From: Actinacidiphila epipremni
GTDB lineage: Bacteria; Actinomycetota; Actinomycetes; Streptomycetales; Streptomycetaceae
Direction of reading: 5' to 3'
Length of the DNA: 64,000 nucleotides
NCBI RefSeq assembly: GCF_012034175.1
Contig: NZ_JAATEJ010000030.1
Location: 1-64,000 of the forward strand
Below, piece after piece: positions 3,302 through 53,988 of this stretch. The position numbers were made by a program, and so were the translations under genes. How positions within the stretch are numbered: the first letter of the stretch is position 1; every line of letters begins with the position of its first letter. A model generated the notes under the pieces. The model had not been told where the DNA came from. It ran no database searches and was given only the letters and a program-made list of their open reading frames with translations.

Positions 3302-3342
3302 CGCCCCGCGGCGGGGCCGCTCCCCCGCCCCGCCGCGGGGCG
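3302..3342. terminator. Bidirectional hairpin terminator
   Basis: A perfect 15-bp stem: CGCCCCGCGGCGGGG at 3302-3316 pairs with 3328-3342 around an 11-nt loop. It sits between the convergent glycosidase and DHFR-like genes. There is no T-tract, as is usual for actinomycete terminators. Confidence 0.75.
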
Positions 3343-22207: not shown

Positions 22208-22248
22208 CGGCGCCGGGTGCCCGCCCTGTGCGGGGGCACCCGGCGCCG
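22208..22248. terminator. Bidirectional hairpin terminator
   Basis: CGGCGCCGGGTGCCC (22208-22222) pairs perfectly with 22234-22248 around an 11-nt loop, between the convergent acyl-CoA dehydrogenase and quinone oxidoreductase genes. Confidence 0.78.
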
Positions 22249-46265: not shown

Positions 46266-46997
46266 ATGACGCACGCAGCAGGCACCGGCCCGCTCGCCCC
46301 CGGTTTCGCCGACCCGCTCGCCGCCGGTCCCGCGGAGGCCACCGACCCCTACTGCCTGGCGCCCGGCGAGAGCGAGGCGCTGCTGCGCGGGGCGCCCTGG
46401 CGGCGGTTCGCGGTGCTGGGCGACAGCCTGGCCGAGGGCCTGGGGGATCCGCTGCCCGGCTACCGCACCGCCTCCTGGGCGGACCGCACCGCCGAGGCGC
46501 TGCGCTCGGCGGCTCCCTCCTTGTCCTTCCTCAACCTGGGCCTGCGCGGCCTGACGACCGCCCAGGTGCGGGCCGGGCAGGTCGAGCGGGCCGCCGCCTT
46601 CGCCCCCGACCTGGTCGCGGTGGTGTGCGGCGGCAACGACCTGCTGCTGCCGGGCTTCTCCCCCGAGGTGGTCGGCAGGGAGATGGACCTGCTCTTCGCC
46701 GCCCTCGCCGCCCCGGGCACCACCGTGGTCACCTTCGCGCTGTCGAACGTCGCCGCCGCGGTGCCGGAACTGCGCGGCGGGCCGCTGGAGAAGGGCGTGG
46801 CGCTGCTGAACGGGATCGTGCGGGAGACCGCGCGGCGGCACGGGGCGCTGGTGGTCGAGATGTACGACCACCCGGCGGGCGGTGAGCGCGACCTCTACAG
46901 CGCCGACCTCGTCCACGCCTCCGCGCGCGGGCATGCGGTGATCGCGGCCGAGACGGTGCGGACGCTGGGGGCGGCGGTGGCCGCGGACCGCGGCTGA
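46266..46997 (+). CDS. SGNH/GDSL hydrolase
   Basis: 243 residues: block [13 protein letters not shown] carries the nucleophile Ser, block [15 protein letters not shown] the oxyanion Asn, block [14 protein letters not shown] the Asp-His pair. No signal peptide, so cytoplasmic. AAGGAG lies inside the MFS end, so translation is coupled to the exporter. Possibly it deacylates or otherwise modifies the exported compound. Confidence 0.9.
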
Positions 46998-47129
46998 GCC
47001 GGGCCCGCATTCCGTCCGGCCCAGCTCAGCCGGCCCCCCGGTCACCCGGCCCTGTCATCCGGCCCGGCGCCGCCCGGCCGGGTCGCCCCGCCTGGCCGTT
47101 TTGCCTGGTCATCCGGCCTGGTCAACGAG

Positions 47130-47138
47130 TTATCCACA
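47130..47138 (+). other. Isolated DnaA box (TTATCCACA)
   Basis: An exact E. coli-type DnaA box in the 221-bp gap upstream of hmgA. Apart from this and the operator, the gap contains CCGG-rich imperfect repeats at about 47000-47120. Single copy, significance uncertain. Confidence 0.4.
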
Positions 47139-47156
47139 GGCGCAGGGCGGGGGTTG

Positions 47157-47196
47157 CCGTCGTGATTCCTATGGTCCAGCATAGGAATCACGACGG
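47157..47196. promoter_or_regulatory. hmgA operator: 16-bp perfect inverted repeat
   Basis: CCGTCGTGATTCCTAT (47157-47172) is exactly complementary to 47181-47196, separated by 8 nt. It lies 22 bp before the start codon, across the likely transcription start (TTGCCG at 47154-47159 and CAGCAT at 47177-47182, 17-bp spacing). Read as a repressor site, possibly two half-operators TGATTCCTAT. Confidence 0.78.
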
Positions 47197-47218
47197 GAAC
47201 GCGAGCGGGGAGCGCATC

Positions 47219-48526
47219 ATGGACGTCAGCCAGGACGGCAAGGATCTCGACTACTCACCGGGCTTTGGCAACGAGCACAGCAGCGAGGCGGTGCCCGGAG
47301 CGCTGCCCCTGGGGCGGAACGCACCGCAGCGCGCCCCCTTCGGGCTGTACGCCGAGCAGTTGAGCGGCACCGCGTTCACCGAGCCGCGGGCGCACAACCG
47401 GCGCAGCTGGCTGTACCGCATCCGCCCGTCCGCGGCGCATCCGCCCTTCCGCCGGGTGCCGAACGGCTCGCTGCGCAGCGCCCCGTTCCTGGACGTGGAG
47501 CCCGATCCCAACCGGCTGCGCTGGGGCCCGCTGCCGCTGCCGCAGGAGCCGACCGACTTCGTGCAGGGCCTGGTGACGGTGGGGGGTAATGGCGATGTGC
47601 TGCGCCGCGAGGGCATCGGCATCCACTGGTACGCGGCCAACCGGCCGATGGCGGGCCGGGTGTTCTCCAGCGCGGACGGCGAGTTCCTGATCGTGCCGCA
47701 GCAGGGCTCGCTGCTGCTGCGGACGGAGTTCGGGCGGCTGCGCGCGGAGCCCGGGCATGTCGCGCTGATCCCGCGCGGGGTGCGCTTCGCGGTGGACCTG
47801 CCGGACGGCACCGCCCGCGGCTATGTGTGCGAGAACTACGGCCGCCCCTTCCAGCTGCCGGAGCTGGGCCCGATCGGCGCCAACGGGCTGGCGAACGCAC
47901 GGGACTTCCTCGCCCCGGTCGCCGCGTACGAGGAGGCGGACGAGGAGACCGAGGTCGTCAACAAGTTCGGCGGGAATCTGTGGGCGGCGCGCTACGGCCA
48001 CTCGCCGCTGGACGTGGTGGCCTGGCACGGCAGCCATGTGCCGTATCTGTACGACCTGCGCCGCTTCAACGTGCTGGGGTCGATCAGCTACGACCACCCG
48101 GACCCGTCGATCTTCACGGTGCTCACCTCGCCGTCCGACACCCCGGGCCTGGCCGGCGCCGACTTCGTGGTGTTCGCGCCGCGCTGGCTGGTCGGCGAGG
48201 ACACCTTCCGGCCGCCGTACTTCCACCGCAATGTGATGTCGGAGTTCATGGGCCTGGTCGAGGGCGCCTACGACGCCAAGGCGGAGGGTTTCGTGCCCGG
48301 CGGTGCCTCGCTGCACAACATGATGTCGGCGCACGGCCCCGACCGGGCGACCTTCGACCGGGCCAGCACCGCGGAGCTGGTGCCGCAACGGGTCGACGAC
48401 GGGTTGGCGTTCATGTTCGAGACGCGCTGGCCGGTCGTGCCGACGCCGTTGGCGCTGTCGGCCGGGCACCGCCAGCAGGACTACGACGCCGTGTGGGAGG
48501 GGCTTGAGAGAAACTTCGGGCTGTGA
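47219..48526 (+). CDS. hmgA: Homogentisate 1,2-dioxygenase
   Basis: 435 residues, full family length. Non-haem iron ring-cleaving enzyme converting homogentisate to maleylacetoacetate in tyrosine/phenylalanine degradation. Signatures: [18 protein letters not shown] at the N-terminus, [26 protein letters not shown], and iron ligands in [14 protein letters not shown] (His, Glu) and [12 protein letters not shown] (His). GGGGAG before ATG 47219. Its stop overlaps the GntR start (GTGA). The following pathway enzymes are not in the window. Confidence 0.96.
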
Positions 48527-49269
48527 GCTCCTTCGCCCCCGACTCCCTGGTCCTCAACCGCAAGCTGCCGCTGTGGTATCAGGTCTCGCAGTCGCTGCGC
48601 GCGTCGATACTGGGCCGCCGCCCCGACGACCCGCTGCGGCTGCCGACCGAGGAGGCGCTGGCCGGGCATTACGGCGTGAGCGTGCTGACCATGCGCCAGG
48701 CGCTCAAGGAACTGGAGGACGAGGGGCTGATATCGCGGCACCGCAAGCGGGGCACGTTCATCGAGCCGGCGGCGCTGCGCGGCGCGCCGGTGCGGCTGCT
48801 CGGCTCGGTCGACGCGATCGTTGCCCAGCAGTCCGGCGGGCGCACCGCGGTCTTCCAGCACGGCCCGACGCCGCTGCCGCCGGAGATACGGGAGCACTAC
48901 CCGGACCTGGCGCAGGCGACGGTCTTCCGCCGGCTGCGGTGCGACGAGCAGGGCGAGCCGACCAACTGGGCGGAGAACTTCCTGCGCCCGGAAACGGCCG
49001 CCGCGATCGACCTGGCCGACCTGGAGCGCTGGCCGATGACCAAGGTGCTGCGCGATGTGCTGGGCGTGCGGATCAGCCGGATCACCGACACCGTGGAGGC
49101 GCGGCTGGCCGACCCGGAGACCGCCCGGCTGCTGCGGGTGCCGCTGCTCAGCCCGATCCTGCACTACACCGGGGTCACGTACGACGCTTCGGGAGAGGTG
49201 GTGGACGTGGTGCGGATCCACTACCGGGGCGACCGCTTCTCCTTCACCGTGACGATGGAGGCACCCTGA
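48523..49269 (+). CDS. GntR-family regulator, HutC (UTRA) type
   Basis: 248 residues: [64 protein letters not shown] is the winged helix, followed by a UTRA effector domain. Coupled to hmgA by a GTGA overlap, so probably the repressor acting at the large dyad before hmgA and sensing a homogentisate-pathway intermediate. Confidence 0.9.
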
Positions 49270-51260: not shown

Positions 51261-52445
51261 ATGGGCCCCATGTCCGTGACACCCCGTGAGCCCGGCAGTC
51301 CTACGCCGCCCGTGACCGGAGCAGGCACCCGCGCGGCGCGAGCACGGCGGGACGCCGGACCGACGCCGCCGCAGCGCGCCCTGCCCCTCCAGGTCCACCT
51401 CGACGACAGCGACTCGCCGTCCGATGTCGTCGACGCCCTCTTCCTCGGCCGTTTCACCTCCGGTGAGCAGCCGTACGCGCGCGGCGCCGCGCTGGACACC
51501 GTCAAGCAGGGGCTGACGCTGCTGCCGCCGGATGCCACCGTGCTGCGGCAGGCCCGCGCCAAGGACCGCAGCGCCACGCTCGCCGAGGGCGACGGCTGGA
51601 CGATCCTGGTCTCGCGCTGGAGCCGCGGCGCCGACGTCACCGTCACCGCCGTGCGCGACGACCTGGCCGAACAGGTCCTCGCCTCCGCGGTGGCCGACGC
51701 CGAGGACACGCCGGAGCCAGAACCGGAGAGCGTCACCATGGGCTTCTGGTACGTCTCGCCGCGCCGCGGGCCGCACCGCACCACCCGGCAGATCTCCGCC
51801 GCGTCGTGGGAGGACCTGCGCGGCAACTACACCGCCAAGGTCGCCGAGGCGATGGACGGCCTGATGAAGCTGGGCGTCGACGACATCACCGGCCGCCTGC
51901 TGCTGCTCCACGGCCCGCCCGGCACCGGCAAGACCTCCGCGCTGCGCACGCTGGCACGCTCGTGGCGCGACTGGTGCCAGGTCGACTGCGTCCTGGACCC
52001 CGAGCGGCTGTTCAACGATGTCGGCTACCTGATGGACATCGCGATCGGCGAGGACGACGGGGCGGCGGGCGGCCGTTGGCGGCTGCTGCTCCTGGAGGAC
52101 TGCGACGAGCTGATCCGCGGTCAGGCCAAGCACCAGACCGGCCAGGCGCTGTCCCGGCTGCTCAACCTCACCGACGGCCTGCTCGGCCAGGGCCGCAACG
52201 TGCTGGTCGGCATCACCACCAACGAGGACCTGGAGCGCCTGCACCCCGCGGTGGTCCGCCCCGGCCGCTGCCTGGCCAGGATCGAGGTCGGCGCGCTCAA
52301 CCGCGACGAGGCCGTGGCCTGGCTCGGCACTCCCGAGGGCGTCGGCCGCGACGGCGCGACCCTCGCCGAGCTCTACGCCCTGCGCCGCGGCACCAACACC
52401 GCGCTCACGCCCGCCCCGCAGTCGGCGGACGGCCTGTACCTGTAG
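51261..52445 (+). CDS. AAA-family ATPase with DUF5925 N-terminal domain
   Basis: 394 residues. The N-terminal DUF5925 region (about 40-190, with QVHLDDSDSPSDVVDALFLGRF and FWYVSPRRGPHR) is followed by a classical AAA domain: Walker A HGPPGTGKTS (217-226), Walker B LLLLEDCDE (276-284), sensor ITTNED and arginine-finger-like HPAVVRPGR. Adaptor and substrate unknown. Tail-to-tail overlap of 41 bp with the TetR gene. Confidence 0.9.
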   Translation: MGPMSVTPREPGSPTPPVTGAGTRAARARRDAGPTPPQRALPLQVHLDDSDSPSDVVDALFLGRFTSGEQPYARGAALDTVKQGLTLLPPDATVLRQARAKDRSATLAEGDGWTILVSRWSRGADVTVTAVRDDLAEQVLASAVADAEDTPEPEPESVTMGFWYVSPRRGPHRTTRQISAASWEDLRGNYTAKVAEAMDGLMKLGVDDITGRLLLLHGPPGTGKTSALRTLARSWRDWCQVDCVLDPERLFNDVGYLMDIAIGEDDGAAGGRWRLLLLEDCDELIRGQAKHQTGQALSRLLNLTDGLLGQGRNVLVGITTNEDLERLHPAVVRPGRCLARIEVGALNRDEAVAWLGTPEGVGRDGATLAELYALRRGTNTALTPAPQSADGLYL

Positions 52446-53073
52446 CCGGCCCGGGCCCGGCCGGCCCCGCAGCCCCTGCCGTCGCCGCCGGCCCCGCCGC
52501 CGCCTCCGCCGCCTCCAGCGCGCCGACGTACACGGCGAGCGTGCGCCCGGCGGCCAGGAACGGCTCGGCCGAGCGCATCCCGCGGGCGAGGACGAAGGCC
52601 CCTTCGAGCGCGGCGAGCAGGGCGTGGATGACGGTGTGCGCCTCCTGCTCGGACAGCCCGCGGCCGGCGAGGTAGCGGCTGCCCTCCTCGACCCACACCT
52701 GCATCACCTCCGCGGCGATCTCCCGCAGCTCCGGCTCGACGTCGGCGATCTCGGCGGTCACGACGCCGACGGGGCACATGTTCGCCCAGCCGGTGCTCTC
52801 CATGTCCCGGGCCGCCGCGGCGAACGCCGCCTCGACGCCGGTCGCGAGGTCGGGGTGCGGGTCGAGCAGCAGCGGCAGCAGCTGGATGTACGCGGCCCCG
52901 GTCTGCCGCAGCGCCGCCGCGGCGACCTCGCGCTTTCCGCCCTTGAAGTGGTGGTAGATCGAGCCGGTGGGGGCGCCGGCGGCGCGCGCGAGCTGGTTGA
53001 TGCCCGTCGCGGCATAGCCCTGCCGGCGCAGCAGTTCGGCCATCGCCAGCGCGATGCGCTCGTCGGTCCTCAT
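52405..53073 (-). CDS. TetR/AcrR-family regulator (LmrA/YxaF-like)
   Basis: 222 residues: RIALAMAELLRRQGYAATGINQLARAAGAPTGSIYHHFKGGKREV is the HTH, and GWANMCPVGVVTAEIADVEPELREIA is typical of the LmrA/YxaF C-terminal group. A Gly/Ala/Pro-rich tail of 35 residues lies in the overlap with the AAA gene. No ribosome site, but -10 TAGCAT (53085-53080) is 6 nt before ATG, suggesting a leaderless mRNA. Divergent from an alpha/beta hydrolase, with two interlocked operators between. Confidence 0.9.
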   Translation of the reverse strand: MRTDERIALAMAELLRRQGYAATGINQLARAAGAPTGSIYHHFKGGKREVAAAALRQTGAAYIQLLPLLLDPHPDLATGVEAAFAAAARDMESTGWANMCPVGVVTAEIADVEPELREIAAEVMQVWVEEGSRYLAGRGLSEQEAHTVIHALLAALEGAFVLARGMRSAEPFLAAGRTLAVYVGALEAAEAAAGPAATAGAAGPAGPGPATGTGRPPTAGRA

Positions 53074-53094: not shown

Positions 53095-53126
53095 CTAGAA
53101 AGGTCTTTCTAGAGAGACCTTTCTAG
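53095..53126. promoter_or_regulatory. Double TetR operator (overlapping CTAGAAAG palindromes)
   Basis: CTAGAAAG-gt-CTTTCTAG (53095-53112) is perfect; CTAGAGAG-ac-CTTTCTAG (53109-53126) has one mismatch. They share CTAG at 53109-53112. Overall CTAGAAAGGTCT and AGACCTTTCTAG form a 12-bp perfect dyad. Such overlapping sites suit cooperative binding of two dimers. Confidence 0.82.
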
Positions 53127-53154: not shown

Positions 53155-53988
53155 ATGGGCCAGATCGAGGTACCGGCCGGGGTCGTCGAGTACGACATGA
53201 CCGGTTCGGGGCCGCCGGTGGTCCTGCTGCACGGGGTGCTGATGGACCACACGGTGTGGGACGAGGTCCTGCCGCTGCTGCCGGACGGGTTCACGTACGT
53301 ACGGCCGGTGCTGCCGCTCGGCGCGCACCGGCGGCCGATGCGGGCGGACGCCGACCTCACGCTGCACGGGCTGACCGGCGTCGTCGCCGACGTCCTGGAC
53401 GCGCTCGGCCTGGAGGACGTGACGCTGGTGCACTCCGACTGGGGCGGCGGGCTGTTCCTGACCGCGCGCGGCCGGGACCGGCGGGTGGCCCGGCAGGTGA
53501 TCCTGCCGTGCGAGGCGTTCGACAACTTCCCGCCCGGGCTGCCCGGCCGGATGCTCACGCTGGCCGCCCGGATGCCCGGCGGCCTGGCGCTCGCCGCCCG
53601 GCAGCTGCGGGTCGGGCCGCTGCGCCGGCTGCCGGTGCTCTTCGGGCGGATGGCCCGCCGCCCGGTGCCGGACGCGCTGGTGCGCCGCTGGACCGAGCCG
53701 CTGCTGGCCGACCGGCTGGTGCGCCGCGACCTGCGGGCGTACTGCACGGGACCGCTGGACAAGGCCGGACTGGTCCGCGACACCGAGGCGTTGAGCTGGT
53801 TCCCCGGGGAGGCGCTGGTGCTGTGGTCGCCGGACAACCGGGTGATGCCGCCCGAGCACGGCCGCCGGCTGGCCCGGCTGCTGCCGGCCGGGCGGTACGC
53901 CGAGGTGCCGGGCGCGTATGTGCTGTCGATGCTGGACGAGCCGCAGGCGGTGGCCCGGGAGATCGGGCGGTTCCTCACCTCGGCGTAG
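53155..53988 (+). CDS. Alpha/beta-fold hydrolase with Asp nucleophile, catalytic His missing
   Basis: 277 residues. HGVLMDHTVWDEVLPLL gives the oxyanion loop and LVHSDWGGG the nucleophile elbow with Asp95, as in haloalkane dehalogenases and epoxide hydrolases. The C-terminal segment PGAYVLSMLDEP aligns with the usual GAGHF..-E.P motif, but the catalytic His position is Val256. It may be an impaired or non-hydrolytic member. GAGGGGG ribosome site. Controlled by the divergent TetR through a double operator. Confidence 0.82.
   Translation: MGQIEVPAGVVEYDMTGSGPPVVLLHGVLMDHTVWDEVLPLLPDGFTYVRPVLPLGAHRRPMRADADLTLHGLTGVVADVLDALGLEDVTLVHSDWGGGLFLTARGRDRRVARQVILPCEAFDNFPPGLPGRMLTLAARMPGGLALAARQLRVGPLRRLPVLFGRMARRPVPDALVRRWTEPLLADRLVRRDLRAYCTGPLDKAGLVRDTEALSWFPGEALVLWSPDNRVMPPEHGRRLARLLPAGRYAEVPGAYVLSMLDEPQAVAREIGRFLTSA

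Follow-up and report, generated by a model that had tools for sequence, protein, structure and literature searches.

A conserved candidate operator with lineage-specific, covarying arms upstream of a probably autoregulated hmgA-gntR operon in Streptomycetaceae

The window, i.e., the whole 64-kb stretch of DNA analyzed here, carries a homogentisate 1,2-dioxygenase gene of tyrosine degradation (hmgA) followed by a gene for a GntR-type regulator (gntR), and upstream of both, at 47157-47196, lies a perfect inverted repeat whose 17-nt arms enclose a 6-nt loop (Table 1). These coordinates agree with the original prediction, whose count of 16 pairs per arm around an 8-nt spacer is replaced by 17 perfect pairs around 6 nt. 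With one mismatch, the repeat extends to 21-nt arms (47153-47173 and 47180-47200), and the long arm ends 19 nt before the hmgA ATG. When all 64 kb were scanned with loops of up to 12 nt, this was the longest perfect inverted repeat; when the window was simulated 20 times with a first-order Markov model, the longest arms reached 10–13 nt versus the 17 nt observed. By comparison across genomes, the repeat is made of two parts, a conserved inner 24 bp and lineage-specific outer arms, the left and right outer arms being complementary at 11 of 12 positions.

Table 1 Features of the hmgA-gntR locus (window coordinates).
Feature	Position	Strand	Details
Terminator-like stem-loop	47075..47098	+	2 overlapping matches; shuffles mean 0.0
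Left outer arm	47153..47164	+	GTTGCCGTCGTG; holds predicted -35 TTGCCG
Predicted -35 hexamer TTGCCG	47154..47159	+	TT at core -11/-10 in 25/25 main-clade loci
Core operator dyad (candidate)	47165..47188	+	ATTCCTATGGTCCAGCATAGGAAT; half-sites ATTCCTA / TAGGAAT, 10-nt spacer
Predicted -10 hexamer CAGCAT	47177..47182	+	17-nt spacer; A14 in 33/33 Actinacidiphila, 15/73 others
Right outer arm	47189..47200	+	CACGACGGGAAC; compensated changes with left arm in pairs 1–5
hmgA, homogentisate 1,2-dioxygenase	47219..48526	+	TIGR01015 equivalog, 694 bits (cutoff 511); HgmA_N, HgmA_C
gntR, HutC-type, candidate repressor of its own operon	48523..49269	+	PF00392 + PF07702

Two further perfect inverted repeats in the window, both GC-rich, exceed the simulated maximum of 13 nt (3302-3342, 16-nt arms and 9-nt loop; 22208-22248, 15-nt arms and 11-nt loop). 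Another one, with 12-nt arms at 53095-53126, separates a TetR gene (52405-53073, minus strand; LmrA/YxaF-like C-terminus) from a start in the opposite direction near 53156, and is probably the operator of this neighboring TetR-type regulator.

We evaluated the association between the two genes by searching 200 Streptomycetaceae genomes for gntR. A strong match (E below 1e-100) was found in 107 of them, the next matches being near 1e-22, and in each of these 107 genomes gntR adjoins hmgA. In the window, the overlap between hmgA and a HutC-type GntR gene was confirmed as predicted: the two coding sequences share 4 nt, and the protein combines GntR and UTRA domains (PF00392, 50.9 bits; PF07702, 83.7 bits) in the HutC-subfamily layout. 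When 50 of the 93 genomes lacking gntR were searched for hmgA, 49 had no match at E 1e-50 either. In the sole exception, G021 (L196), hmgA is retained next to a TetR gene of opposite orientation and no close gntR is present.

The inner part of the repeat is strictly associated with this gene pair. The motif A[AT]TCCTA-N10-TAGGA[AT]T was found upstream of hmgA in all 107 hmgA-gntR loci, i.e., wherever the regulator gene occurs in the family sample, with 91 exact matches, 15 with one mismatch (including A. oryziradicis) and 1 with two, while shuffled upstream DNA gave 4–8 mismatches. Together with the joint absence of hmgA and gntR described above, this supports the original proposal, in which the expected start site of hmgA carries a GntR-type operator. 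The core is a single site in the 8.2-Mb genome from which the window derives, even when up to 3 mismatches are allowed. For clade comparisons, 35 Actinacidiphila genomes provided 33 loci after exclusion of A. oryziradicis (L035) and of G021, which lacks gntR. Across the 73 loci from outside Actinacidiphila, core pairs 1, 3–7 and 9 are complementary in 61–73 loci and pair 2 in 33, while flanking pairs 1–24 are complementary in 11–40 loci, for a background of about 22. Within 80 named loci, which overlap partly with the same genomes and include two left unjudged, L139 (no upstream sequence) and L123 (anchor displaced by an hmgA deletion), all six key pairs are kept in 68, and pair 7 alone fails in ten. 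The expectation that the arms be conserved upstream of orthologous hmgA-gntR pairs thus held for the core and failed for the long arms, which are found mainly in one Actinacidiphila clade of 25 genomes (hereafter “main clade”).

In A. oryziradicis (G138; L195), hmgA has lost about residues 38–336 and both gntR and the core dyad are still present, a case of a regulator outliving its target. A distant gntR (about 50% identity) adjoins hmgA in G207, G208, and G210. The upstream DNA was examined for G208 and G210, which belong to another family of the order, the G207 contig ending inside hmgA, and their best core matches had 4 and 7 mismatches, i.e., were shuffle-like. By eye, a different short dyad, ATGATTCGATGAATC, is seen near the hmgA start codon of both genomes (L194 and L193, respectively).

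Promoter-like elements overlap the core and its flanks. Outside Actinacidiphila, a TT at core -18/-17 (66 of 73 loci; TG in the other 7) lies 17 nt before a TAYGGT at core 6–11, the last T of which is kept in 73/73 loci, and this arrangement fits the S. coelicolor promoter elements NTGACC and TANNNT (PMC4895711). In the main clade, the TT at -18/-17 is found in 0/25 loci and the last T of the old -10 element (T11) is lost in 8/25. From these patterns, the -35 and the -10 element (NANNAT at core 13–18) both appear shifted downstream by 7 bp with their 17-nt spacing preserved (Table 1). The 8 other Actinacidiphila loci are mixed, with TT at -11/-10 in 6, A14 in 8, and T11 in 6. Since the promoter elements appear shifted by 7 bp while the core stayed in place, the promoter alone does not account for conservation of the core. 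Transcription of hmgA is predicted to start within the right arm, near 47189-47190 (about core position 25). Because CAGCAT is a weak match to TANNNT (without its first T) and a sigma-70 scan listed no promoter, this start site is one that we infer.

Further upstream, TTATCCACAGG at 47130-47140, which ends 12 nt before the left arm, resembles a DnaA box. In 21/33 Actinacidiphila, TTNTCCACAG lies at -35 to -37 relative to the core, and the genome from which the window derives contains 42 TTRTCCACAGG versus 1 occurrence of the reversed control pattern.

The GntR protein falls in no named equivalog (HutC, PhnR, PhnF, TreR, and others), its best score being 85.3 bits where the cutoff is 220, and all 19 NCBIfam families that it matches score below their curated cutoffs. 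By sequence, the top match among solved structures is an unnamed putative regulator (2ra5), and the closest named ones are NagR/YvoA of Bacillus and DasR of Streptomyces (E 4.8e-15 to 2.2e-14), i.e., GntR/HutC repressors with the same helix-turn-helix and effector-domain layout. NagR uses Arg38 and Arg48 to read two guanines in each half-site, and its half-sites are six nucleotides apart (PMC4333415). Here, these arginines align with E44 and V54 (numbering by hand), the latter conserved at >95% in each Streptomycetaceae group, and the ATTCCTA half-sites are 10 nt apart. Most HutC sites share a GT-N4-AC center (PMC4494728). This center is absent from the core across the 33 Actinacidiphila and 73 other loci, where the innermost pairs 10, 11, and 12 are complementary in 10, 23, and 5 and in 34, 15, and 11 loci, respectively. 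The replacement of the two arginines by E44 and V54 fits a non-canonical operator, and combined with the missing GT-N4-AC center it identifies the core, from sequence, as a divergent HutC-type site. The same source describes one HutC-subfamily exception, SdhR, which likewise has a long palindrome (26 nt, with additional symmetry) outside GT-N4-AC (PMC4494728). The SdhR palindrome differs in sequence from the core described here. A search for GntR residues correlated with bases at core positions 2, 8, 9, and 23 was discarded: the best pair, residue 45 and base 8, reached 0.65 bits and follows genera.

The sequence itself shows the dyad, its conservation and uniqueness, the pairing of the two genes and the conserved promoter-like elements that overlap the dyad. 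From these, the inner 24 bp are most likely the conserved operator of an autoregulated hmgA-gntR operon. Specifically, a dimer of the HutC-type GntR would bind the inner 24 bp and cover the hmgA promoter, blocking hmgA-gntR transcription (negative autoregulation), and uptake of a pathway metabolite by the UTRA domain, probably homogentisate or a neighboring compound, would lead to its release.

The outer arms follow a different logic, in which pairing is kept and base identity is not. In the main clade, at least 5 further perfect pairs are present in 21/25 loci and at least 7 in 19/25, the four members below 5 (L013, L017, L018, L028) having 4, 2, 1, and 1 outer pairs, and the majority consensus of the clade consists of 21-bp perfect arms. 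Outer pairs 3 and 4 are complementary in 29/33 and 28/33 Actinacidiphila, with a base preference across these 33 loci of ~0.3 bit on the left side and 0.5–0.6 on the right. For pairs 1–7, we counted 8 same-branch changes, 8/8 of them compensated versus 0.85 expected at random, while controls with the partner slid by 1–4 gave 0–4 same-branch and 0–2 compensated changes; these counts use an hmgA + gntR tree with 11/35 inner branches under 80 and Fitch tie-breaking, and some inner-branch events may be artefacts. The covariation score of 0.260 (shuffles, 0.087) was reached by 0/500 shuffles, as was the tally of outer pairs in which each side had changed (5 of 7, namely pairs 1–5), with the caveat that related sequences can beat such shuffles without structure. 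Further pair types were not above shuffles (the observed value was reached in 77/500), and 3 pairs changed on both sides also arose in the +3 slide control. The compensated changes were of the kinds C-G to G-C, T-A to C-G, and G-C to T-A, and a G-T wobble accounted for 1 of the 15 mismatched cells in pairs 1–7.

This arm covariation points to template-switch homogenization or hairpin selection rather than to abutting dimer sites. Homogenized arms and an inverted spacer mark template switching between inverted repeats, as reported in PMC8604942, and the L034 loop, CTGAAC, reads exactly as GTTCAG, the loop seen most often (12/25), on the opposite strand, matching the spacer inversion that template switching yields. 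Such an exact loop inversion was seen in 1 of the 25 main-clade loci. By eye, the sister loci L014 and L017 share the same left arm, and one extra base in the right arm of L014 restores pairing. A role of template switching in the origin and upkeep of RNA hairpins has likewise been proposed (PMC8794818). Compensated changes between arms and exactly inverted loops are also described for yeast genes and RNA genes (PMC8604942; PMC8794818), while here the setting is a bacterial promoter and operator, one arm of which carries the predicted -35 element. At the 73 loci outside Actinacidiphila, there was no general arm growth at perfect 9-bp cores (p 0.72): the mean extension was 0.75 at the 8 perfect 9-bp cores (one with 5 bp) and 0.62 at the 65 imperfect ones, for 0.43 by chance, with 5 extra pairs each in L051 and L072. 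The little growth seen at other perfect cores speaks against a purely mutational cause.

Overall, we consider a joint reading to be the probable one, albeit with clear room for doubt, in which a GntR operator core has been joined by Actinacidiphila-specific arm growth, likely via template switching. The outer 7–12 bp per arm would represent this lineage-specific growth, their bases would not be read by the repressor, and pairing would most likely arise and be renewed through replication template switching, in which one arm overwrites the other; selection for a hairpin may have contributed. A more specific version, i.e., that compensated covariation, a pattern commonly accepted as proof of an RNA structure, here arises in largely untranscribed promoter DNA, with template switching renewing the arms on either side of an unchanged repressor core along which the promoter moved by 7 bp, is put forward tentatively, as a possibility with somewhat less than even chances.

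Alternatively, the long arms could form an RNA stem in the hmgA 5′ leader, transcribed from an upstream promoter that escaped recognition, its structure being selected for a role in mRNA stability or in the control of translation, a reading that we judge unlikely. The repeat has a very stable fold (-35 kcal/mol, z -9.8), outer pairs 1–5 each changed on both sides, and RNA structure is known to give compensated change with little base preference. However, the conserved -35-like element within the left arm puts the start in the right arm, and RNA from about this predicted start folds unremarkably (z 0.34). Wobble intermediates are as scarce as noted above, and the 73 other loci lack long arms beyond short, chance-like extensions. 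No Rfam match up to E 1 was found in 46900-47400, and a known RNA element was rejected on this basis. The structured 5′ leader raised in the original prediction is therefore weakened by the position of the predicted start and retains in its favor that the outer pairs covary as in RNA stems.

The symmetry of the DNA itself could also be selected, either as a cruciform or because a higher GntR oligomer contacts the flanks without base specificity, and we see this as likewise improbable. It would account for bases that change while pairing is kept and for arms symmetric over the predicted -35 and start, and the single-strand DNA fold is strong (-22.3 kcal/mol, z -10), yet the 73 loci with the same core show no such need, 4/25 clade members have mostly lost their arms, and the consensus lines of the DNA-binding domain, compared by eye, do not differ markedly between long-armed and other groups.

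That the core is the site of another regulator, with gntR a bystander, we hold to be quite improbable. In G021, which has no gntR, the dyad has drifted to GTTCCCATGGTCGACCATTGGAAC (4 mismatches to the core), a point in favor of the GntR operator, with its palindrome retained, a point for the bystander reading, and it is from sequence that we infer GntR binding to the core. Against the bystander reading stand the strict association of core, hmgA, and gntR in Streptomycetaceae, the single core site in the genome from which the window derives, and upstream neighbors that vary between an SGNH, a TetR, and an oxidoreductase gene. The suggestion of two abutting operators with one GntR dimer per arm, which the repeat length and a 10-nt half-site spacer versus the six nucleotides of dre-sites (PMC4333415) might recommend, has very little probability, as neither 21-nt arm contains an internal dyad of at least 4 bp (loop up to 7), flanking pairs are near background in the 73 non-Actinacidiphila loci, and the outer half, confined to one clade, keeps pairing where long arms exist with little conservation of base identity. 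Finally, we rejected a role of the repeat in ending transcription of the gene before it, be it as an intrinsic terminator (a GC-rich stem with a T run) or as a block to read-through: a separate terminator-like stem (47075-47098) already separates the repeat from the SGNH-type gene upstream, the repeat is absent from the terminator scan list, and long arms occur alike with co-directional SGNH genes (L111–L114, L120) and opposed TetR or oxidoreductase genes (L115, L184).

In S. coelicolor, HpdA and HpdR control hppD. Homogentisate breakdown bears on pyomelanin formation. In a survey of Proteobacteria, the regulators named for homogentisate genes are of the IclR (HmgR, which responds to homogentisate), LysR (HmgQ), MarR (HmgS), and TyrR (TyrR/PhhR) kinds (PMC5343134), i.e., of other families and in another phylum than the GntR/HutC candidate of Streptomycetaceae described here. 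Among the literature matches listed (titles and abstract starts), there was no GntR operator at hmgA in Streptomyces and no link between the GntR/HutC family and the homogentisate pathway. The terms hmgA and homogentis- are absent from the main text of PMC4494728, a survey of GntR-family sites, as are SCO1714, SCO1715, and homogentis- from PMC2276206.

Taken together, the repeat is best described as a conserved candidate operator in a probably autoregulated hmgA-gntR operon, with arms whose covarying extension is specific to one lineage. This would provide a candidate regulator and operator for homogentisate breakdown, and hence for pyomelanin, in Streptomyces and relatives. If a hairpin is selected instead, the repeat would be a DNA-level (cruciform) regulatory element. 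The 25 related operators of the main clade form a natural series of matched arm changes with a likely non-RNA cause, and as such call for caution in taking covariation as RNA structure.
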